From the NCBI GenBank assembly GCA_030535715.1, contig JAUNRL010000002.1, forward strand, positions 1-27,790: a DNA stretch of 27,790 nt. The letters run 5' to 3'. This document shows, piece by piece, positions 1 to 17,030 of this stretch; within the stretch, counting starts at the first letter, position 1, and each line of letters starts with the position of its first letter. Below the pieces are notes generated by a model. That model was not told the origin of the DNA. It made no database searches and was given only the letters and a program-made list of their open reading frames with translations. This stretch comes from Bacillota bacterium (GTDB lineage Bacteria; Bacillota; Clostridia; Peptostreptococcales; Anaerovoracaceae). The translations under genes were made by a program, and so were the position numbers.

Positions 1-180
1 AACGAAAACAAGCGCCGCTGCCGTGTACGCCAAGGTAAACAACAGAGCGGCGGTCACCGCCGGATATCCCCGCCAGAAATACAGTATCAGCAGCACAAAA
101 GCCCACCCGGCGAAGATCACCCGGTTTGCTGTCTGCCGCCGCTTCAGCCGGCCGGCAATCCGGCGGATGTTTCCCCTCAT
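1..180 (-). CDS. DUF58-type membrane protein, N-terminal part (cut by window edge)
   Basis: The first 60 codons of a gene that runs off the left edge. The visible peptide has a short basic N-terminus (MRGNIRRIAGRLKRRQ) followed by two hydrophobic stretches split by a short FWRGYP turn, the usual start of DUF58 proteins, which have two membrane helices before a von Willebrand factor A-like domain. Its ATG overlaps the TGA of the MoxR gene in an ATGA arrangement, so the two are translationally coupled. MoxR-DUF58 pairs are a well-known conserved neighbourhood, often followed by a transglutaminase-like membrane protein. The DUF58 call rests on the context and the membrane topology only, because the diagnostic C-terminal domain lies outside the window. 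Any other small membrane protein start would look the same. Confidence 0.65.
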   Translation of the reverse strand, partial: MRGNIRRIAGRLKRRQTANRVIFAGWAFVLLILYFWRGYPAVTAALLFTLAYTAAALVFV

Positions 181-1112
181 TGCTTCAGCTGGGGCAGAGG
201 CACATCGTTCAGGATTTCGGCGATGATGCTCTCCTTATCCTTTCCCTGCACCCCCGCCCGGGTATGCAGCATGATCCGGTGTCTGGCCACGTCGGGGAAG
301 ACGGCCCAGATGTCCTGAGGGATCACGAACTCCCTGCCCTGCACATAGGCCCACGCCTGAGCCATGCCCGTCAGGGACAGAGCGCCCCGGGGGCTGATGC
401 CCAGCCGGATCAGGTCGTGCTCCCGGCTTCTGCGGCAAAGGGCGGTGATGTAACCGTAGATTAGGTCGTGAATGAATACCTCCCGGGCCTCGCTGCGCAT
501 AGCCATCACATCCTCCGCCCCGGCTACTCGCGCGATGTTCTGCAGGGGATCCGTCTTCTTGCGGTCCTTCAGAATGTTGATCTCCGCCTCTTCGTCGGGA
601 TACCCGATGGACAACTGGATCATGAAGCGATCCAGCTGTGCCTCGGGGAGCATCTGCGTTCCCGCCGTGCCGATGGGATTCTGTGTGGCGATCACCACGA
701 AGGGCTCAGGCACCTTCCACGTCTTCCCATCCACGGTGATGCTTCCCTCCTGCATGACTTCCAGGAGAGAAGACTGTGTTTTGCTTGATGTCCGGTTGAT
801 TTCGTCCGCCAGCAGGATGTTGCACATGGCCGTACCGGGGCGGTAGACGAACTTTTCGCTCTTCCTGCTGTACACGGTAAAGCCGGTGATATCCGAGGGA
901 ACCACATCCGGCGTGAACTGGACACGGTTAAACTGCAGATCCATGGCCCGGCTGAAGGCGAGGGCCAGCGTCGTTTTGCCGACCCCCGGAATATCCTCCA
1001 GCAGAATGTGCCCGCCGGCAATGATCACCGTCAGGACCTTTCGTATGATTTCCTCTTTTCCCAGAATGGCCTTCCCCGCTTCCGCTTCGATGGCGTAGAT
1101 GATCTCATGCAT
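177..1112 (-). CDS. MoxR family AAA+ ATPase
   Basis: A cytoplasmic AAA+ ATPase of 311 residues, the normal MoxR length. The Walker A motif is DIPGVGKT (residues 40-47) and Walker B is LLADEINR (about 100-107), followed by the family hallmark QSSLLEVMQEG, the sensor-1 stretch VIATQNPIG and PEAQLDRF. The C-terminal half is the helical lid domain. MoxR ATPases are thought to act as chaperones that help assemble or activate partner proteins with von Willebrand A domains, and the coupled DUF58-type gene downstream fits that. An SD-like AAGGAG lies about 11 nt before the ATG. The preceding B12-riboswitch gene stops only 27 bp upstream with no terminator between, so this ATPase may sit in the same cobalamin-responsive transcript. 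The true substrate is unknown. Confidence 0.93.
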   Translation of the reverse strand: MHEIIYAIEAEAGKAILGKEEIIRKVLTVIIAGGHILLEDIPGVGKTTLALAFSRAMDLQFNRVQFTPDVVPSDITGFTVYSRKSEKFVYRPGTAMCNILLADEINRTSSKTQSSLLEVMQEGSITVDGKTWKVPEPFVVIATQNPIGTAGTQMLPEAQLDRFMIQLSIGYPDEEAEINILKDRKKTDPLQNIARVAGAEDVMAMRSEAREVFIHDLIYGYITALCRRSREHDLIRLGISPRGALSLTGMAQAWAYVQGREFVIPQDIWAVFPDVARHRIMLHTRAGVQGKDKESIIAEILNDVPLPQLKQ

Positions 1113-1139
1113 GATGACGGATGCTCCTTTGTGTTGACT

Positions 1140-2762
1140 TTACCGGATTACCTTTACTTTCTTGCCGGCGTTCTTCCCGGTGAAGATCTTCCTGTACTTC
1201 TTCACGTACTTCCTGTTCATCTTCTTGCCGCCGACTTTGACCTTGACGGTCGTGACCGCGGAGCCCTTCAGGGAGCCCCTGACGGCCTTCTTCTTCAGCT
1301 TCTTGGACTTGACCTCCAGGGTGGTCACGTTGCCGTACTTATTGAAAGCGCCCTTGTTGATCTTCCTGACCTTCTTGCCGATAACGAAGGTGGTTACAAA
1401 CGGGGAGGATCCACCTGCACTGGCAACGGCTTTTTCTACCGTTCCGGCACTGATGGTTTTTGCGTTGAGGGTGACAGTTTTAACCGATTTCACCCCGGCC
1501 AGCGGATCGACAACGGTAACAGTACAATGAGGTGCCACGATTTTTCCATCACCATACTCCCCTTCAGCTTTTCCGGTTGCGGAGATTTCGAAGATTCCGG
1601 TCTCGTTGAGAGAAAGGCTGACCGTCCCCTTGTTGTCCATTTTTACTCCGCTGATTCGTGTGAGCCTGCCGTTTTTGTCCATCTTCGCCGCAATGATTTC
1701 CGCGTTCTTCGCACTCTTCAGTGCTTCTGTTTTGCCATTCCAGTTAACCCGCTTAAGATTAAGCTTAAAGCTTTCTCCCATGTTAACGGTAATCTCATCT
1801 TCATTGAAGCAGGTTGCAACATCATTCCAGCCATTCCGGTTCATAAAGTGATCATACCGGTCGCCGTCTTTCAGGGTGGTATGGTAAGCCGAGCCTGCCA
1901 TCGAAAGATCGTTGTTGACAAAGTAAACCTGGTTGTTTGTAGTTACACTGAAGCATTTGGTGATCCATCCACCCGTCCCAATGACAAGATAATCCTTTGC
2001 TGATGTTTTAGAAAAAGCATTGCCGTATTTCTGGGCATGCAGTGTGTACAGTACGTCGGCAACGGTAATCTTATCTCCATTTCCGGCCTCCCGGTCACCC
2101 ATATCTCCATAATTCTCCGCTGCCTTGCTGGATACACGAATTCTCTGCGGAACAACGTCAAACTGATCCGCCGCTGCGAAGTTCCGAACCGCAACCTTAA
2201 TCGTTCCGGTAACCTCTTTTGGTTCAGTAACTTTGACCGTTGCATAGGGAGTCACGAAGTGGTTGTCGAGAGGGTTTTCGCCATACGCACTGACTTCCAG
2301 GGTGTAATCTCCCAGCTGAAGGTCAGTGAATTTGGCATTTCCGTCTCCATCTGCTGTTGCCGTTTGAACGGTTTCACCCTGCTCGTTTTTCATGGCTACT
2401 ACAGCATCTTCCGATTCGAGCAGGCCACCGTTACCCGTCATCTTATCGAAGGCATACGCGGCGTTTACATTAACGGTCAATGATTCTCCCTGAAATGCCT
2501 CATAGGCCATCTGATCCTGATCATCCGCATAGGACACTCCCCCAAAGACCGGCATGAACGCCAACACCATGGCTAGGGAAAGCCCCACTGCCGTGATACG
2601 TTTTCGTAATTGCTTCATAACCTTCTTGCCGATGATGATCGCGGTTACATACCGGCTGGATCCACCTGCAGCGGTCACCGCACTATCCACCGTACCGGCG
2701 CTGATGTTTTCGCATTCGGCGTACCGGATCCCTGGCCTGTACAATAACGTTTCTTTTGTCAT
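1140..2762 (-). CDS. secreted DUF4430-like (transcobalamin C-terminal-like) protein with BspA-type C-terminal module
   Basis: Start taken at the ATG with a strong AAGGAGGTG (540 codons). An alternative ATG at 2618 begins a textbook signal peptide (MKQLRKRITAVGLSLAMVLA, cleavage near SYADD) but has only a close-spaced AAGAAGG. Numbering from that second ATG, residues about 45-130 look like a beta-sandwich. Residues 138-258 resemble DUF4430: a TVADVL-type element, GGWITKC, VYFVNN and LKDGDRYDHF. An Ig-like stretch and a Lys-rich module ending KKVKVIR follow. DUF4430 is related to the C-terminal domain of animal transcobalamin and intrinsic factor, and the gene sits behind a cobalamin riboswitch, so a surface role in corrinoid capture is inferred. 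The first 48 residues after the 2762 ATG contain a second copy of part of the C-terminal module. The DUF4430 call is by pattern and moderate. Confidence 0.75.
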   Translation of the reverse strand: MTKETLLYRPGIRYAECENISAGTVDSAVTAAGGSSRYVTAIIIGKKVMKQLRKRITAVGLSLAMVLAFMPVFGGVSYADDQDQMAYEAFQGESLTVNVNAAYAFDKMTGNGGLLESEDAVVAMKNEQGETVQTATADGDGNAKFTDLQLGDYTLEVSAYGENPLDNHFVTPYATVKVTEPKEVTGTIKVAVRNFAAADQFDVVPQRIRVSSKAAENYGDMGDREAGNGDKITVADVLYTLHAQKYGNAFSKTSAKDYLVIGTGGWITKCFSVTTNNQVYFVNNDLSMAGSAYHTTLKDGDRYDHFMNRNGWNDVATCFNEDEITVNMGESFKLNLKRVNWNGKTEALKSAKNAEIIAAKMDKNGRLTRISGVKMDNKGTVSLSLNETGIFEISATGKAEGEYGDGKIVAPHCTVTVVDPLAGVKSVKTVTLNAKTISAGTVEKAVASAGGSSPFVTTFVIGKKVRKINKGAFNKYGNVTTLEVKSKKLKKKAVRGSLKGSAVTTVKVKVGGKKMNRKYVKKYRKIFTGKNAGKKVKVIR

Positions 2763-2766
2763 AAGA

Positions 2767-2775
2767 CACCTCCTT
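2767..2775 (-). promoter_or_regulatory. strong Shine-Dalgarno deciding the upstream start at 2762
   Basis: On the minus strand AAGGAGGTG lies 4 nt before ATG ACA AAA. It is far stronger than the AAGAAGG that sits 2 nt before the signal-peptide ATG at 2618. It therefore argues that ribosomes begin upstream of the signal peptide. Confidence 0.7.
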
Positions 2776-2805
2776 TTTCTCACCTGCGGTGAGTGAGGAA
2801 CGTAC

Positions 2806-2840
2806 ACAAAAAAACCACAGTCACTTTCGACTGCAGCCCG
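2806..2840 (-). terminator. intrinsic terminator downstream of the cobalamin riboswitch
   Basis: On the minus strand a hairpin of about 8 pairs, with core CAGTC / GACTG and loop GAAAGT, is followed directly by a run of seven T. It lies between the riboswitch core and the SD of the DUF4430 gene, as expected of the expression platform of a transcription-attenuating riboswitch that switches off when B12 is bound. Confidence 0.7.
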
Positions 2841-2899
2841 TTTTCGCCACATCATCAATTTATGCCCGCTCTCTCGCCTCTGTGTTCACCGCACAGATC

Positions 2900-3090
2900 A
2901 AGAACCATATTCCATGCAGGTCTCCTGGCTCATAGATCTTCACCTTCGTTCTCCTTCCCAGCCGGTTGCATCCCTGCGACATGGATGATACTCAGCCAGT
3001 GGATTGCCTTTGCAGTGAACGAGGATTCCCTAAACACAGTGGCGGGACCGCTCAGGCTTCTCTCCTGATTCCCTCTTAGCCCCCAAATCA
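2900..3090 (-). promoter_or_regulatory. cobalamin riboswitch
   Basis: Read on the minus strand, the leader carries the conserved cobalamin riboswitch boxes in the right order. First comes AGGGAATCAGG with its partner GCCTGA, then GCGGTCCCGCCACTGTG, a peripheral arm containing CCACTGG and GGGAAGG, then GAGCCAGGAGACCTGC (the B12 box). The order, spacing (about 180 nt) and box sequences match the class closely. It lies about 30 nt downstream of the predicted transcription start and upstream of an intrinsic terminator. It should reduce expression of the DUF4430 gene, and possibly moxR, when adenosylcobalamin or a related corrinoid is plentiful. Exact ends are approximate. Confidence 0.93.
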
Positions 3091-3127
3091 ATGGAAGAAC
3101 ACGGAATATTTCTATATTGTCGGGAAT

Positions 3128-3156
3128 ATTCTAACCCTTTCTGTTGGTAAAGTCAA
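3128..3156 (-). promoter_or_regulatory. sigma-A promoter for the riboswitch operon
   Basis: On the minus strand TTGACT (3156-3151), a 17-nt spacer and TAGAAT (3133-3128). Transcription would start near 3120, just ahead of the riboswitch. There is also a weak GGAA/TTCC hairpin with six T at about 3163-3184, a possible poor terminator for the preceding TIM-barrel gene. Confidence 0.75.
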
Positions 3157-3196
3157 TTGCACAAAAAATGGAAGTTCTTTTCCCGCTGCGCTCAAC

Positions 3197-3958
3197 TCAC
3201 CGGTCCAGCAGCCAGCGGATGGAGTCGTGGCAGTCGCGGCTTTCGATGGTGAGCGTAGTGTCCGGGGGACAGCAGGCATCCACGGCGCGGAGAACTTCTT
3301 CCATGTCCAGAGTTCCCTCCGTCAGAGGCTGGTGGAGGTCATGAATCCCGTCGTTGTTGTGCAGGTGGAGATGACGGATCCGGGAACCCAGGGTTTCGAT
3401 CCACTCCGGAACGCTTGTCTCTGAGATGGCATTGACATGGCCCACGTCCAGGCAGATCTTCATGCGGGGGTCGTCCACGCCGTCCACGATGTCCAAAAGC
3501 AACGCCGGCTTTTCGTCCATGACGTTTTCCAGAAGGAGCAGAAAATCCTCCGGCTTGTCCTGCAGGAATTCCTGCCAGAAACCGATGGACTCCTTCACCT
3601 GCCAGCGGGGATCAAAGATCAAGGGGATGTAGCCGGTGTGGACGACCATACAGGTAAGACCCAGGGCGAGCATTCCCGCCGCAGCCTGATCAAAGCGAGT
3701 GCGGGTCAGATCCCGGAAGCGGTGATCGAAGGCGGCCGGCGCCAGGTCGGTGAAAGGGCCGTGCACGATTGCCTTTGCCGGGAGGCAGATCCCGCAGCGC
3801 TCAGCCTGCCGGCGCATCCGGGTTAGAGTGTCATCGATTGTCTCCTCGTCCAGCCACCTGGAAATGCAGAACTGATTGAATTCGATCCCGATGCCGTAGA
3901 AGGCGATCTCCTTCGCCGCGTTATGGGAAAAGGTGGACAGAAATATGTCTCGGTTCAT
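3197..3958 (-). CDS. xylose isomerase-like TIM barrel protein (sugar phosphate isomerase/epimerase family)
   Basis: A 253-residue cytoplasmic protein of the AP_endonuc_2 / xylose isomerase-like TIM barrel superfamily (PF01261). Candidate divalent-metal ligands appear in the expected order: H107 in VVHTGY, E144 in LLLLENV, D171 and H174 in KICLDVGH, H198/H200 in RHLHLHNNDG, and E239 in LTIES. The HNNDG..HD..P..EGTLD segment is typical of isomerases/epimerases of this fold, and also occurs in endonuclease IV-like proteins. An AAGGAG SD lies 7 nt before the ATG. It is the last gene of the 10105-3197 run, 62 bp after the SUV3-like helicase. The substrate cannot be told from sequence; a role in sugar or inositol catabolism is not supported by the neighbours. 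Confidence 0.82.
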   Translation of the reverse strand: MNRDIFLSTFSHNAAKEIAFYGIGIEFNQFCISRWLDEETIDDTLTRMRRQAERCGICLPAKAIVHGPFTDLAPAAFDHRFRDLTRTRFDQAAAGMLALGLTCMVVHTGYIPLIFDPRWQVKESIGFWQEFLQDKPEDFLLLLENVMDEKPALLLDIVDGVDDPRMKICLDVGHVNAISETSVPEWIETLGSRIRHLHLHNNDGIHDLHQPLTEGTLDMEEVLRAVDACCPPDTTLTIESRDCHDSIRWLLDR

Positions 3959-8575: not shown

Positions 8576-9356
8576 AAAAAACCTCCGCTAAATACAGTCC
8601 GTACGGCGGCGCCGTATGGCCCGCCAGTGTCCGGTCTCTTCCCTCCAGAATTTCCGCCATTTCCTCCGGCCGGCGGTTTCCCCGGCCGATCTCCACCAGC
8701 GTTCCGGTGATGATCCGGACCATATTATAGAGGAAACCGTCCCCGCTGACGTCAAAAATGATCTCGTCGCTGCAGCTCTCCACTCCCGCGTATACCCGCG
8801 CATCCGTAATCGTCCGCACCGTCGACTCCCGGGGTGTGCCGCCGGAGGCCTCGAAGCTTTTGAACTCATGGGTGCCGATCAGCATTTTCGCTGCCCGATC
8901 CATGGCGCCCGCATTCAGGTCGTCCTCCACGTGGTAGACATAGCTGCGCCGGAACACATCAATGTCCCGGGACGGCCGAATTCGGTAAAAATACCGCTTG
9001 CCTCTGGCGTCGAAGCGGGCATGAAACTCCTCCGGAACCTCCCGGGCTTCGAGAATCCGCACCGGCGACAGGGCGAAACTCCCTTCCTCTCTGCCGCAGA
9101 GAGCGTTATTCATCACCCGGGCAAGCCGCCCGATGGGAATACGGATATCTGCATGAAAAGAAGCTCTCTGCCCCAGCGCATGAACGCCGGCATCGGTACG
9201 GCTGGTTCCGTTCAGCAGGATTTCCTGGCCGAAAAGCCGAGAAAAGGTCTGCTCCAAATATCTTTGCACCGTCCTCTCCCTCGGCTGTCTCTGCCAGCCG
9301 TGGAAGCCGGAACCGTCGTATGCGATTGTGAGCAGGTAGTTCTTCATCGCCCTCAT
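8550..9356 (-). CDS. truA: tRNA pseudouridine(38-40) synthase TruA
   Basis: 268 residues from this start. The family hallmarks are the N-terminal [16 protein letters not shown] and the catalytic [11 protein letters not shown] with Asp at about residue 55. Later come RYFYRI, SFEASGG and DGFLYNMVR, also typical. TruA converts uridines 38-40 of the anticodon arm to pseudouridine. The start is set at the ATG that overlaps the prepilin peptidase stop as TAATG; an ATG three codons in (9347) fits the family alignment equally well and has GAGGG before it. A longer in-frame extension to 9407 would overlap the previous gene and adds nothing like the family. It is coupled downstream to the dCMP deaminase gene. 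Confidence 0.94.
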
Positions 9357-10105
9357 TATACAATAAACGGCCACACGATGAAAACAGTAAATATCCCGGC
9401 ACCGCACAGATACGGCCCCAGCGGTTTCATCTCATCCCTCCGGTATTTCCTGCGGGCCAGTCCGATGGCCGCCCCGATTCCGCTGGCCAGACAGCCCGCC
9501 GCCAGAGCGATCAGCATACAGCGCAAGCCAAGACACAGACCCATGGCAGCACAGAGCTTCACGTCACCGAATCCCATAACATCCTTATGAAACGTCAGTC
9601 TTCCCAGCAGTGCCACGGCAAGCATGGTGCCTCCCCCGAGGACCAGCCCGCCCAGGGGCTGCCCAATGCTCCCGTATAAAGGCAGCACCCCCAAAGAAGA
9701 AATGGCCAGCATGATCACGAACTGATCCGGAATGATCATGTACTTCAGATCCGCCAGACCGATGATCAGCATTGCCCAGCAGGCGAACAGAGAGGCCAGG
9801 GCGATCTGCCCCTGGCTGATCAGCTGTACCGTCGGCTCCGGAAGGCCCGTGAATCCCGCCAGCGGCCGCTGCACCTGCGCGAACAGCATTCGCAGGCTGA
9901 GACAGGCGAACAGGCCGCAGTAGACCCAGCGCCAGGGCCAACCCTTTACCCGCTGAACCGAACGGTTCTTCAGTCCTTCAGAGGGCTCCTCTCCGTATTC
10001 GCACAGCCAAGAGGCCGGCATGCGGTTGAAGATATAGACGGCCGACAGCCCGGCCAGGGAACCCAGGGCTGCGCCGACAATGAGTTTTACATAAATAATG
10101 GTCAC
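9356..10105 (-). CDS. A24 family prepilin peptidase-like protein
   Basis: A 249-residue, strongly hydrophobic protein of the type IV prepilin peptidase family (A24 aspartic peptidases). The two catalytic aspartates are visible: D119 in ADLKYMIIPD and D181 in the GxGD motif GFGDVKL. The C-terminal KPLGPYL is also characteristic. The N-terminal region, which in full-length PilD/ComC enzymes holds the methyltransferase part with a CxxC...CxxC zinc cluster, has no CxxC pairs and is short, so only peptidase activity is expected. No pilin, pilus ATPase or Tad/Flp genes are in the window, so the substrate must be encoded elsewhere. It is the first gene of the run ending at 3197 and has its own promoter. 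Confidence 0.87.
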   Translation of the reverse strand: MTIIYVKLIVGAALGSLAGLSAVYIFNRMPASWLCEYGEEPSEGLKNRSVQRVKGWPWRWVYCGLFACLSLRMLFAQVQRPLAGFTGLPEPTVQLISQGQIALASLFACWAMLIIGLADLKYMIIPDQFVIMLAISSLGVLPLYGSIGQPLGGLVLGGGTMLAVALLGRLTFHKDVMGFGDVKLCAAMGLCLGLRCMLIALAAGCLASGIGAAIGLARRKYRRDEMKPLGPYLCGAGIFTVFIVWPFIV

Positions 10106-13739: not shown

Positions 13740-14120
13740 TTAGTTGAACGTCATCAGCGTGTCGCCGGAGTTGACGGACGCGCCCTTGACCACCGAGATG
13801 GAGGCAACGATTCCGTCTGCCGGAGCCGAAATCTCATTTTCCATCTTCATGGCTTCCAGAATCAGGACAACCTGGCCGGCCGTCACTGCCGCGCCCTCGG
13901 AAACCTTAATGTCCAGAATCGTTCCGGGCATCGGTGCAGTCAGCGCGCCGCCACCGCCGGCCGGAGCTGCCGCCGGCTTCGCTGCCGGTGCAGGCGCTGC
14001 GACCGGAGCCGGGGCTGCCGGTCTCGCTGCCGCTGCCGGTGTGGGCGCTGCCGCGCCGCCGGCCTCTTCAACTTCTACTGCATAAGTGGTTCCGTTTACG
14101 GTAATGTTATACTTTTTCAT
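13740..14120 (-). CDS. biotin carrier subunit of a sodium-pump type acyl-CoA decarboxylase
   Basis: 126 residues in three parts: a short N-terminal beta segment (KKYNITVNGTTYAVEVEE), an Ala/Pro-rich hinge (about 22-57), and a C-terminal biotinyl domain with the modification site EAMKME (Lys92). This is the layout of methylmalonyl-CoA, glutaconyl-CoA or oxaloacetate decarboxylase biotin subunits (MmdC/GcdC type). The biotin is charged with CO2 by the carboxyltransferase encoded two genes upstream and would normally be decarboxylated by a membrane beta subunit, pumping sodium. It follows the OadG-like gene by 52 bp and is the last gene before the terminator, so the expected beta subunit gene is not in this operon. 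Confidence 0.92.
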   Translation of the reverse strand: MKKYNITVNGTTYAVEVEEAGGAAAPTPAAAARPAAPAPVAAPAPAAKPAAAPAGGGGALTAPMPGTILDIKVSEGAAVTAGQVVLILEAMKMENEISAPADGIVASISVVKGASVNSGDTLMTFN

Positions 14121-14172
14121 GGTATTTGCTTCCTTTCGATATTTGGATGATTAACCCTTCTTCGGAGTTATT

Positions 14173-14580
14173 CTACAGTTTCATTTTTCTGGTTGCCATG
14201 CGCGCTTCGTTGGCGGCGTTCGCCCACGGAGTCAGGTTTCCCGACAGACGCGTGATCCTGCGAACCACAAGGTTGTCCGGATCCGCCCCCTCACTCGCCG
14301 CAATGGCCGCCGCAATCACCGCGATCAGACTGTCGTCCGCCGCTGCCGGCTCTGCCGGTGTGGGAGCTGCCGCAGGAGTCGCCTGCTTGTGATGATCCGC
14401 CGCGCCCAGAACCTTACCCATAATGACGATGAAGATCCAGATCAGGATCAGGACGGTAAAGGTGATGCCCAGACCCATGATCATGGTTACCGTCGAACCC
14501 AGCATCTTCTCGCCGAAGGACAGGCTGTGTATCGTCGTCGGATCCTTGAAGATATCCATCAAGCTTTCATTGCCAGTCAT
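14173..14580 (-). CDS. OadG-like (sodium pump decarboxylase gamma/delta) membrane subunit
   Basis: 135 residues with one strong membrane helix (about 32-58, MIMGLGITFTVLILIWIFIVIM), an Ala/Pro linker, then a small cytoplasmic part ending ITRLSGNLTPWANAA. This matches the OadG/MmdD family, small subunits that tether the carboxyltransferase and biotin carrier to the membrane beta subunit of sodium-pumping decarboxylases. The C-terminal AVIAAAIAA segment is usual in MmdD proteins. It lies 12 bp after the carboxyltransferase gene and before the biotin carrier gene, the canonical mmdA-mmdD-mmdC order. A GAGGTGACG SD lies close before the ATG. Confidence 0.88.
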   Translation of the reverse strand: MTGNESLMDIFKDPTTIHSLSFGEKMLGSTVTMIMGLGITFTVLILIWIFIVIMGKVLGAADHHKQATPAAAPTPAEPAAADDSLIAVIAAAIAASEGADPDNLVVRRITRLSGNLTPWANAANEARMATRKMKL

Positions 14581-14592
14581 TCACGTCACCTC

Positions 14593-16140
14593 CTAGAGTG
14601 GAATGTTGCCGTGCTTCTTCGCCGGCAGCAGTTCCTTCTTGGTGGCCAGCATGTCGTAAGCGCTGATGATCCGCTTTCTCGCCGTTGCCGGTTCGATGAC
14701 GTCATCGACGTAGCCCAGACTTGCCGCGTAATACGGATTGTTGAACTGCTCTTCGTACTCCGCGATCCGTTTCGCTCTGACCTCATCCGGATTGTCCGCA
14801 GCCTTGATCTCCTTCTTGACGGAGGAAATGATGTTGACCGCGCCGGATGCGCCCATCACCGCGATCTGCGCCGACGGCCAGGCCAGAACCATGTCGGATC
14901 CCAGTTCCTTGTTGCACATGCCGATGTAAGCTCCGCCGTAGGCCTTCCGCAGGATCATGGTAACCTTCGGAACGGTCGCCTCACAGTACGCGTAGAGAAT
15001 CTTCGCGCCGTGGCGGATGATGCCGCCGTACTCCTGATTGGTTCCCGGAAGGAATCCCGGAACATCCTCAATGGTCAGCAGCGGAATATTGAACGCATCG
15101 CACCGGCGGATGAATCTGGCCGCTTTGTCGGAAGCATTGATGTCCAGACATCCCGCGCCGACAGCCGGCTGGTTAGCGATGACGCCAACGGTGGAACCGC
15201 CCATCCGGATGAAGCAGGTAACGATGTTCCTGGCATACATGGGCATCACGTCATAGATCTGTCCGTTATCCGCCAGACCCCTGACGATGTCGTACATGTC
15301 ATATCCCTTGTTCGGATTTTCCGGAATGATGTCATTGAATTCCGGAATCAATCGGTTCACATCATCGGTGCACTCGTAAACCGGCGGCGTCTCCATGTTG
15401 TTGGAGGGCAGATAGGTCAGCAGTTCTCTGACCTGCTTCAGCGTATCCTCATCATCGACGCCCATGAAGTGAGCCACACCGCTGATGGTGTTGTGGGTTC
15501 TCGCTCCGCCCAGCTGCTCCGAGGTGACTTCCTCGCCGGTAACCGTCTTGATGACGTTGGGGCCGGTGATGAACATCTGGGAAGTCTGGTCAACCATGAA
15601 AATGAAGTCCGTGATGGCTGGAGAGTAAACCGCTCCGCCTGCACAGGGCCCCATGATGACCGAGATCTGAGGAATGACGCCGGAGGAAATTGTATTATTG
15701 TGGAAAATCTTCGCAAATCCGGAGAGAGCCGCAACACCTTCTTCAACCCGAGCTCCGCCGGAATCCTGAAGACCGATGATAGGCGCGCCCATCTTCAGCG
15801 CCATGCCCTGTACCTTGACGATCTTCTCCGCGTGATACTCGCCGAGGGAACCGCCGCTGACGGTAAAGTCCTGCGCGAAAGCGAACACCAGTCTTCCGTC
15901 AATCTGTCCATATCCGGTTACCACGCCGTCGCTGGTCAGTTCCTTCTCGCCCATGCCGTAGAAGTGGCACCGATGTTTAACAAAGGTATCGATCTCAACG
16001 AAACTATCCTTGTCGAACAGAATGTCCAGCCGTTCTCTGGCGGTCAGCTTTCCCCTGGCATGCTGCGCTTCGATCCTTTTCTCTCCTCCGCCAAGCAGAT
16101 TCTTCCGTTTCCGTTCGCGGAGATCCTCAAGCTTATTCAT
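14593..16140 (-). CDS. mmdA: acyl-CoA carboxyltransferase subunit, methylmalonyl-CoA decarboxylase alpha (propionyl-CoA carboxylase beta-like)
   Basis: 515 residues, the usual length of MmdA/PccB. The N-terminal half begins with KRIEAQHARGKLTARERLDIL and carries GLQDSGGARVEEGV and the oxyanion-hole stretch GPCAGGAVYSPAITDF. The C-terminal half has PGFLPGTNQEYGG, KAYGGAYIGM and GASGAVNII. It transfers CO2 between methylmalonyl-CoA (or a similar acyl-CoA) and biotin on the carrier protein. With OadG-like and biotin subunits downstream, the decarboxylase reading (methylmalonyl-CoA to propionyl-CoA) is favoured over a carboxylase, and no biotin carboxylase gene is present. Substrate specificity is inferred. 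AAGGAGG lies 8-9 nt before the ATG. Confidence 0.9.
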   Translation of the reverse strand: MNKLEDLRERKRKNLLGGGEKRIEAQHARGKLTARERLDILFDKDSFVEIDTFVKHRCHFYGMGEKELTSDGVVTGYGQIDGRLVFAFAQDFTVSGGSLGEYHAEKIVKVQGMALKMGAPIIGLQDSGGARVEEGVAALSGFAKIFHNNTISSGVIPQISVIMGPCAGGAVYSPAITDFIFMVDQTSQMFITGPNVIKTVTGEEVTSEQLGGARTHNTISGVAHFMGVDDEDTLKQVRELLTYLPSNNMETPPVYECTDDVNRLIPEFNDIIPENPNKGYDMYDIVRGLADNGQIYDVMPMYARNIVTCFIRMGGSTVGVIANQPAVGAGCLDINASDKAARFIRRCDAFNIPLLTIEDVPGFLPGTNQEYGGIIRHGAKILYAYCEATVPKVTMILRKAYGGAYIGMCNKELGSDMVLAWPSAQIAVMGASGAVNIISSVKKEIKAADNPDEVRAKRIAEYEEQFNNPYYAASLGYVDDVIEPATARKRIISAYDMLATKKELLPAKKHGNIPL

Positions 16141-16379: not shown

Positions 16380-16883
16380 TTACTTTTTTTCCTTAATGGT
16401 CGACAGATCCAGCTGATTGATCACGACCTTTTTCTTGGCATCGCCGTCCTGCGGCGGCGCAATGGCGTAAAACAGCGAATACTCACCCTGCACCGCGGTA
16501 ACCTCCCGGATAAGGGGATCGCCGTAAGCCGTAAGCGTCACTCTGTACTGGCCCTTTTTCCCTTTGTCGTATGTGATGCAGTTGACTCCTTTCCTGATGG
16601 TCACGTTCTTCGTGATGGACGGGTTCGGTTTGTCTTTATCCGCAGCTGCCTTGTCAATCTTCTCCAGCGTCAGCGTAAACTCTGCCTCCGCTTCCGACAG
16701 GACATAGATGTTGATTTTGACCGTCTGAGGCGCGGCCTGCGTCGCCTTGGTTGCCGCCGCCCTTGTTGTCGCTTTCGTCTCCGTCTTCGTCACGCTATAC
16801 GCATTCTGTACTGCGAAGGCAACTCCGGCAAAGACCAGAATCGTTACGACCGCAATCATTCGTTTCACCGCTGTGGTCATCAT
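16380..16883 (-). CDS. small secreted or membrane-anchored protein of unknown function
   Basis: I do not recognise this 167-residue protein. It has a basic start followed by one hydrophobic stretch (about 9-26, MIAVVTILVFAGVAFA), which is either a signal peptide or an N-terminal anchor. Next is a Thr/Ala/Lys-rich linker (about 30-53) and a compact beta-rich domain with alternating hydrophobic residues (VKINIYVLS, FTLTLEKI, QYRVTLTAYG, YSLFYAI). No cysteines, sorting motif or catalytic signature is seen. It has its own near-consensus promoter and an AAAAGGAGAG SD, so it should be well expressed. Two ATGs stand in tandem at the start; either may be used. It is flanked by the glyA terminator and a stable 3' hairpin, so it is a single-gene unit. 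Confidence 0.8.
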   Translation of the reverse strand: MMTTAVKRMIAVVTILVFAGVAFAVQNAYSVTKTETKATTRAAATKATQAAPQTVKINIYVLSEAEAEFTLTLEKIDKAAADKDKPNPSITKNVTIRKGVNCITYDKGKKGQYRVTLTAYGDPLIREVTAVQGEYSLFYAIAPPQDGDAKKKVVINQLDLSTIKEKK

Positions 16884-16956
16884 ATCCGCTCTCCTTTTCT
16901 TTTTTAATCGCCCAGTGACCCCTTCTCACCGCATTTCTTTCTTTATATATAGTAGA

Positions 16957-16985
16957 ATTGTATCACTATCTGCCAACTATGTCAA
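16957..16985 (-). promoter_or_regulatory. near-consensus sigma-A promoter for the 16380 gene
   Basis: On the minus strand a perfect TTGACA (16985-16980), a 17-nt spacer and TACAAT (16962-16957). It is the best promoter match in the window and lies about 45 bp beyond the glyA terminator. Confidence 0.85.
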
Positions 16986-17030
16986 ATATTTCCACGGAGG
17001 CGAGGCGGCTCCGGCAGCGCGGGAAACGCG

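Follow-up and report, generated by a model that had tools for sequence, protein, structure and literature searches.

Why should a MoxR ATPase and its DUF58 partner stand behind a cobalamin riboswitch? MoxR-DUF58 modules are widespread and, to our knowledge, have no settled substrate, and the capture of corrinoids at the surface of Gram-positive gut bacteria and their handover to an importer are, as far as we know, little understood. The question is raised by contig JAUNRL010000002.1 of a Bacillota bacterium (family Anaerovoracaceae; assembly GCA_030535715.1), which was analyzed over 27,790 nucleotides (hereafter the window). The window is contig C97 of genome G000, a metagenome-assembled genome (MAG) of 1.23 Mb in 221 contigs, with a completeness of 90.15% and a contamination of 5.55%. 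At its left end, a cobalamin riboswitch, the gene of a secreted protein (P0001), moxR and the start of a DUF58 gene follow one another on the minus strand. Judging from this order and from its recurrence elsewhere, we think it fairly probable that the window holds the head of a cobalamin-riboswitch-controlled operon for corrinoid capture and import, served by a MoxR-DUF58 remodelling machine. The same coupling is repeated in related bacteria, which suggests that the MoxR-DUF58 machine helps Gram-positive bacteria to take up B12.

The head of a probable operon and its full form in a relative

The features of the unit are given below. The relative used for comparison is G003 (JAFRHG010000029.1, a goat jejunum MAG), with L085 as its orthologous locus; LpX, SmallY and surf1 to surf4 are labels coined in this analysis.

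3156-3128, minus strand: promoter TTGACT-17-TAGAAT, 10 of 12 consensus matches, conserved in L085
3119-2898, minus strand: cobalamin riboswitch aptamer (RF00174, 108.4 bits, E 1.4e-26)
2839-2812, minus strand: intrinsic terminator of the riboswitch, a stem with a U run, conserved in L085
2619-2762, minus strand: in-frame 48-aa leader, seemingly made up of the first residues of surf1 and a leftover piece of the surf2 C-terminal domain, both genes being otherwise absent here
1140-2618, minus strand: secreted surface protein P0001, 492 aa (ATG 2618 to stop 1140), 77% identical to its orthologue surf3 in G003
1854-2141, minus strand: DUF4430-like domain (P0001 residues 160-255), delimited by an iterated profile, with weak DUF4430 similarity
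1143-1493, minus strand: Lys-rich C-terminal domain of P0001, with matches in other surface proteins of several genomes of the genus
177-1112, minus strand: MoxR AAA+ ATPase, 311 aa (Pfam AAA_3, 186.9 bits, E 1.7e-55; AAA_lid_2, 76.8 bits, E 1.1e-21)
1-180, minus strand: N-terminus of a DUF58 protein, 60 residues, cut by the contig end, with a 4-nt overlap with moxR

An earlier note on this DNA had proposed a promoter, a cobalamin riboswitch and a terminator ahead of a signal-peptide protein, and all of these were found. The covariance model exceeds its gathering cut-off of 31.5 bits and is covered over its full length (positions 1-189), and the riboswitch is one of three cobalamin riboswitches in G000. 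The promoter is the sole minus-strand promoter-like site in 1-3400. Overall, the promoter scan gave no excess over shuffled sequences (2 found, mean 2.2), and the terminator scan was no better (4 found, mean 3.9), so weight was placed on conservation in L085. There, TTGACA-17-TAGAAT is the only plus-strand promoter-like match in 18.6 kb, and a terminator lies at the equivalent place (2760-2787). In the fold of 2755-2900, the terminator hairpin is present in the centroid and only partly in the minimum-energy structure.

P0001 and moxR are separated by 27 bp (1140 to 1112), and no minus-strand terminator-like site was found in this gap, in agreement with what had been proposed. The next gene overlaps moxR by 4 nt. 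The 60 residues of that gene in the window show no Pfam DUF58 match, and its identity is taken from the full orthologue in G003 (L039 13917-15038), which matches DUF58 (PF01882) at 24.1 bits against a cut-off of 23.4. The starts of this gene on C97 (window 1-180) and on another G000 contig, C212 (L006 2-180), are near-identical and unequal, and are perhaps strain variants in the MAG.

The full locus can be followed in G003, where a single strand, along a span of ~22 kb that begins with the riboswitch and ends with the S component, carries the order riboswitch-surf1-surf2-surf3-MoxR-DUF58-transglutaminase-like protein-LpX-SmallY-surf4-DUF4430-EcfT-EcfA-EcfS, followed by ATP synthase genes. The transglutaminase-like protein is a membrane protein (Transglut_core E 5.8e-22), LpX is a lipoprotein with a toroid-type repeat, SmallY has a DUF4430 match at its C-terminal end, and surf4 contains beta-propeller, cadherin-like and fn3 domains. 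The energy-coupling factor (ECF) transporter consists of a CbiQ-type T component, a double ATP-binding cassette (ABC) ATPase and an ECF S component. DUF58, Transglut_core, DUF4430, the ECF S component, CbiQ and ABC_tran are supported by Pfam or by genome search. The portion from DUF58 onward is also found in G000, on C212. For LpX, surf4, the DUF4430 protein and the S component, the domain scan was made on this copy (L006), in which DUF4430 (PF14478) reaches its cut-off at 9027-9635 (62.7 bits, E 4.6e-17). A cobalamin switch heading the unit and a B12-uptake setting, both put forward in the earlier note, are supported. In L006 4159-5340 (G000:C212) the SmallY frame is broken before the DUF4430 end, which lies in another frame, unlike in G003; this could be an error or decay.

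The two genomes share the order surf3-MoxR-DUF58 and the same 27-bp gap. Between the riboswitch and moxR, G003 has three surface genes and the window only P0001, the orthologue of surf3. Window 3171-2723 aligns with L039 5414-5860 (the riboswitch and the first codons of surf1), window 2730-2620 aligns with L039 10566-10677 (the end of the C-terminal domain of surf2) at 73%, and the window from 2618 onwards aligns with the start of surf3. The 48-aa leader may be the remnant of two surface genes that are present in G003 and absent from the window contig. The frame of P0001 is open upstream to ATG 2762, which has a Shine-Dalgarno sequence (a feature that the earlier note does not mention), so surf3 may carry here a 48-aa extension ahead of its signal peptide.

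A contig of this kind raises the possibility that the neighborhood reflects chance, hitch-hiking or faulty MAG assembly, with the B12 switch functionally unlinked to MoxR. The contamination of the MAG (5.55%), the fused leader and the fact that most MoxR genes are unlinked to such a switch would be in keeping with it. The identical order and 27-bp gap in G003 oppose it, and the recurrence of the coupling in four families (f1, f4, f6 and f11) and three MoxR clades, described below, largely refutes it. We give this explanation hardly any credence.

Recurrence of the coupling in the genus and the order

Of 49 genomes of the genus, 20 gave MoxR matches, 24 in all. Eight of these matches have a cobalamin riboswitch and/or a Pfam DUF4430 match within ~12 kb on the same strand, one of the eight (G013:C71) being a fragment of ~80 residues. 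The riboswitch is on the contig in five of the eight and lies upstream every time. In G006, the riboswitch ends 132 bp upstream of the moxR match, and in G068 a diverged MoxR-DUF58-transglutaminase module stands in a co-directional locus of ~24 kb with a riboswitch, surface proteins, LpX, DUF4430 and ECF genes. A single origin of B12-linked MoxR inside the genus was not rejected (approximately unbiased test, p 0.058; G065:C6 and the fragment G013:C71 did not enter the test, which leaves 22 of the 24 matches). In G010 (L065 1367-4913), a fused NifH-NifD-like protein (CfbC 2.9e-91, below cut-off) and a second nitrogenase-like protein are located between a DUF4430 surface gene and moxR; a NifH-like start was also seen, by eye only, near locus L099 of another family.

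The sample of the order comprises 118 genomes with 75 MoxR matches, and all 75 loci were examined (the window and L095-L168). Seventeen have a cobalamin riboswitch in the stretch, all on the moxR strand; it is upstream of moxR in 10 loci and only downstream in 7. Sixteen of the 17 reach an Rfam cut-off, and L097 has only a partial match to R1, the sequence-only model used for searching. In the window's family, nine of nine MoxR loci are linked, its genus being represented there by G000 alone. The riboswitch stands immediately before moxR (~70 to 165 bp) in five loci, namely G006 of the genus set, G148, G163, G137:C22 and G137:C16. In 1.31 Mb searched, 22 riboswitches were found, against ~1.6 expected at the genus density of 1.23 per Mb and 5.3 at 4 per Mb, an estimate that treats loci as independent although relatives are not. 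The link between MoxR-DUF58 and the B12 switch, also put forward in the earlier note, is strongly supported: it is seen again in further genera and families, and in the five loci named the riboswitch is the direct neighbor of moxR on its upstream side.

Rfam was run on 19 of the 75 loci, and the remaining loci were searched with R1 alone. This model contains no base pairs. Its training set had 21 riboswitches, of which 15 lie in loci later searched, and none came from L097, L098, L109, L133 or L145. Rfam confirmed the R1 matches in L109 (three), L133 and L145, and that in L097 was unconfirmed. The L098 riboswitch (16860-16991) is of the AdoCbl type, lies downstream of the MoxR module and scores 50.9 bits against a cut-off of 50. 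A hand-made riboswitch motif detector was dropped, having recovered 10 of the 22 Rfam-confirmed riboswitches and no extras.

The linked loci take three forms. In form I, that of the window's family, MoxR-DUF58-transglutaminase has as a rule LpX, DUF4430 and ECF genes close by. Form II (families f6 and f11; L099-L105) shows the order riboswitch-DUF4430-three unknown genes-MoxR-DUF58-BatA-VWA-LpX, with domains scanned in L100 only; six of the seven loci have a riboswitch in the stretch, that of L104 being downstream. In form III (family f4; L133 and L145), a riboswitch and the genes of an ABC transporter adjoin MoxR-DUF58; the binding protein of this transporter is of the Peripla_BP_2 type and matches several families, BtuF among them. 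The riboswitches of form III (L133 7036-7210 and L145 6927-7102) are strong RF00174 matches, downstream of the MoxR module and before the Peripla_BP_2-type ABC transporter (by eye in L145). LpX was found in 14 of the 75 loci, 9 of which were in the LpX profile, and among the matches listed, at least 11 loci have Pfam DUF4430 on the moxR strand no more than 5 kb away from moxR.

The coupling spans the four families and three MoxR clades named above. In a MoxR tree of 80 rows (the 75 order loci and five linked genus loci, unlinked genus loci being left out), the B12 label changes at least 4 times on well-supported branches, against 20.1 times with shuffled labels. Gains and losses are indistinguishable in this tree, in which L105, a locus with no riboswitch, counts as linked on the strength of its LpX and DUF4430. 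Among genomes with several MoxR matches, only one is linked in each of G083, G149, G057, G126 and G138, and both are linked in G137.

These distributions bear on a different explanation, in which MoxR-DUF58-transglutaminase is a general envelope-assembly module that matures any large surface protein and stands in a B12 operon merely since large surface proteins are encoded there. Unlinked copies of the module in the genus, the fn3 and Ig-like domains of some surface proteins of the locus, and the PFNA locus of Bifidobacterium, where MoxR, DUF58 and a transglutaminase are coupled to an FN3 protein of the surface (available text of PMC6803598 and PMC8430577), all speak for it. The five loci with the riboswitch directly before moxR have no surface gene between, linked MoxR genes of the order sample are often beside LpX and DUF4430 too, and the selective linkage in the five genomes above (G137 with both linked) also argues against it. 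We regard general assembly as unlikely, though as an explanation that deserves weight.

A putative surface binder and a proposed MoxR-DUF58 machine

If the operon serves corrinoid uptake, what would bind the corrinoid? DUF4430 is related to the beta-domain of transcobalamin, and the LpX profile matches squalene-cyclase-type toroids. Among 14 LpX members, one matches Pfam Cobalamin_bind (PF01122) at 5.9e-5, and the others match related toroid families or none. LpX and DUF4430 are found in one polypeptide in four relatives, L049, L052, L092 and L094 (the DUF4430 of L094 at 2e-4), which suggests that the two make up a corrinoid binder split over separate proteins, whose cargo the ECF transporter would import. 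Two further short proteins carrying both labels were set aside as chance. Like transcobalamin and intrinsic factor, the locus would combine an alpha-toroid, of which LpX is a candidate, with a DUF4430-type beta-domain; it differs from them in that the two are mostly separate genes with membrane-anchored products, sequence similarity is marginal and binding is putative.

The transglutaminase-like protein probably has no catalytic Cys. The Cys column was placed by aligning the G003 protein to the structure 6g49 of TgpA, a transglutaminase-like membrane protein of Pseudomonas aeruginosa (match 6.5e-9). In 14 aligned proteins selected from those found (10 B12-linked and 4 unlinked), this column holds Asp in 12 and Ser in 2, His is kept in 13, and the third triad residue is Glu in 12, Asp in 1 and Asn in 1, so that the Cys-His-Asp triad of TgpA is probably absent. 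In 4 of the 14, including the proteins of G003 and G000 (the latter encoded outside the window, on C212), a Cys stands one position ahead of the column, and an alignment shift is possible there. The Asp or Ser at the Cys column suggests that the protein is probably a structural part. Cross-linking, with the Lys-rich C-terminal domain of P0001 as amine donor, was rejected as the main model because the column is never Cys and the Lys-rich domain is found, too, where a genome gave no match to MoxR.

In the mechanism that we favor, the operon is probably on when B12 runs short: at low intracellular cobalamin, the leader would read through the terminator into one transcript. The surface proteins, the membrane-anchored DUF4430 proteins and the alpha/alpha-toroid LpX, which resembles the alpha-domain of transcobalamin, together would hold corrinoids at the cell surface, from which the ECF transporter (CbiQ-type T component, double ATPase and S component) would import them. 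The MoxR-DUF58-transglutaminase-like module would be a membrane-spanning AAA+/VWA-type machine that loads, opens or resets a tight surface binder, with no cross-linking. The CbbQ-CbbO rubisco activases are a MoxR and VWA machine that frees rubisco of inhibitors, a tightly held ligand; they are an analogue for the proposed release role and differ in being soluble and having no relation to B12, so the comparison is analogy only. Since MoxR-VWA machines insert metals or free rubisco, an ATP-driven loading or release step on a surface binder is the preferred, unproven mechanism. A bolder version would have the riboswitch induce a membrane-spanning release device, built of MoxR-VWA and a dead transglutaminase (or BatA/VWA), by which a split, transcobalamin-like trap on the cell surface is opened and its corrinoid passed on to an ECF or ABC importer, a counterpart, in cells without an outer membrane, of TonB-driven B12 release from BtuB; this version is speculative and, we think, doubtful.

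Could MoxR-DUF58 instead act on the cofactor itself, as an AAA+/VWA pair of chelatase-like function that, with CobS-CobT or NorQ-NorD as its model, works on cobalt or on the corrin ring? Metal insertion by MoxR-VWA pairs is described for NorQD (available text of PMC13036017 and PMC9976466), and the MoxR of the window is distantly similar to subunits of Mg- and cobalt chelatases (TIGR02442 at 1.7e-6, TIGR02031 at 6.3e-9, both far below cut-off). Against this, no CobN-like large subunit was recognised in the open reading frame maps, in which no dedicated search was made, G000 has a CbiK-like chelatase behind another riboswitch, and the neighbors are mostly secreted or membrane proteins. A chelatase role appears very improbable to us.

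Several observations weigh against the operon being a corrinoid capture system served by MoxR-DUF58. In the genus, 16 of the 24 MoxR matches have neither a riboswitch nor DUF4430 on the contig, and in the order 58 of the 75 MoxR loci have no riboswitch in the stretch (9 of these 58 stretches are <10 kb). Conversely, nine genus loci have EcfT with DUF4430 or LpX and no MoxR in the stretch (L041, L049, L051, L052, L057, L059, L092, L093 and L094), so the MoxR module is not obligatory. The Lys-rich C-terminal domain is likewise found in four genomes without a MoxR match (G004, G017, G020 and G030), and the DUF4430 profile built here matched only 5 of the 75 order loci. Comparisons with transcobalamin in the PDB gave E 0.36 for LpX and, with a transcobalamin-2 fragment, E 0.22 for the DUF4430 profile, neither significant alone. 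The G003 locus has 26 terminator-like sites when the two strands are taken together, where shuffled sequences average 16; of its 9 plus-strand sites (L085), 8 fall inside genes, and none separates surf3 from moxR. The contig of the window comes from a MAG, and its fused leader, which G003 does not share, could be an assembly fault or a real deletion. For P0001 itself, the search against Pfam DUF4430 (PF14478) gave no match at E<=1, and in its family 3 of 13 domains match DUF4430 at E<=1, the best at 0.006.

The last point concerns a claim of the earlier note, a DUF4430-like segment in the secreted protein, which is weakly supported. P0001 comprises a signal-peptide-like N-terminus (by eye), a prealbumin-like region (Pfam matches below cut-off), the DUF4430-like domain, an Ig-like region (by eye) and the Lys-rich domain. 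Pfam, NCBIfam and PDB sequence searches for DUF4430 in P0001 gave no significant match. With an iterated profile of residues 131-275, the domain was recovered from 10 proteins, which belong to 10 loci retrieved for this analysis, window included. Similarity to P0001 or the presence of riboswitches had guided the choice of these loci, and their B12 context reflects this choice in part. When this profile was compared with an anchored DUF4430 profile by hhalign, E was 0.0024 (a single comparison) at a probability of 12% over 29 columns, and a PDB search with it placed 3u7z, which we take to be a DUF4430 structure, at E 0.23 behind unrelated chains. We read the P0001 domain as a divergent DUF4430-like domain and not as a member of DUF4430: hints at the family level point to the likeness, and membership falls with the missing Pfam match.

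Upstream of the riboswitch, the same strand encodes a further candidate for B12 metabolism.

3197-3958, minus strand: CbiR-like protein (AP endonuclease 2 / xylose-isomerase-like TIM barrel)

Its best NCBIfam family is CbiR (NF041277), at E 1.4e-13 and 51 bits, below the cut-off of 105, and it matches Pfam AP_endonuc_2 at E 5.1e-22. Homologues are located within or adjoining six B12 loci (L039, L040, L042, L052, L092 and L093). CbiR belongs to the AP endonuclease 2 superfamily and remodels cobamides (available text of PMC7733943), and the product here is a candidate for such an enzyme. Elsewhere in G000 (C62; L007 2779-3270), another cobalamin riboswitch precedes the CbiK-like chelatase, which is cut by the contig end and has a lipoprotein-type N-terminus by eye. 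Window 13740-16140, on the minus strand, contains biotin-dependent decarboxylase-like genes (carboxyltransferase, small membrane subunit and biotin carrier), labelled by eye; the enzyme is perhaps for methylmalonyl-CoA, which would suit a B12 need.

Relation to known systems and significance

How much of this arrangement is already known? In Pseudomonas aeruginosa, we take PA2875 to be a MoxR and PA2874 to be a DUF58 protein. The genes PA2875-PA2874-PA2873 are co-transcribed and end in TgpA, which has a Cys-His-Asp triad and was active when assayed (available text of PMC3507681). The transglutaminase-like protein of the locus matches the TgpA structure 6g49 and differs from TgpA at the Cys column in all 14 proteins. 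In the PFNA operon of Bifidobacterium, pkb2-fn3-aaa-atp-duf58-tgm, the gene of a surface FN3 protein comes before those of MoxR, DUF58 and a transglutaminase-like protein that is polytopic (available text of PMC6803598 and PMC8430577); the present locus has the same order behind a surface protein. In contrast, the present locus has LpX, DUF4430 and an ECF transporter, and the available text of PMC8430577 mentions neither riboswitch nor cobalamin (0 occurrences). No counterpart of the kinase pkb2 at the head of PFNA was recognised by eye in the open reading frame maps here, in which no kinase search was made. With cobalamin-riboswitch ECF or BtuFCD uptake operons, the loci share an RF00174 leader with ECF T, A and S components, or with a Peripla_BP_2 ABC transporter in family f4; the addition of MoxR, DUF58 and a transglutaminase-like or BatA/VWA partner sets them apart.

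No description of a coupling between MoxR and a cobalamin riboswitch was found in the literature searched, available in part, with subscription papers and papers using other gene names outside its scope. We therefore rate the coupling as new within that literature, whereas the parts, and the MoxR-DUF58-transglutaminase order with a surface protein, are already known.

If it holds in several families that the riboswitch controls the module along with proteins resembling transcobalamin, then corrinoid handling would be a concrete and testable substrate for MoxR, and the B12 regulon would gain an energy-using step at the cell surface. That some species have the two transcobalamin-like halves apart and others have them fused may also bear on the origin of animal B12 carriers.

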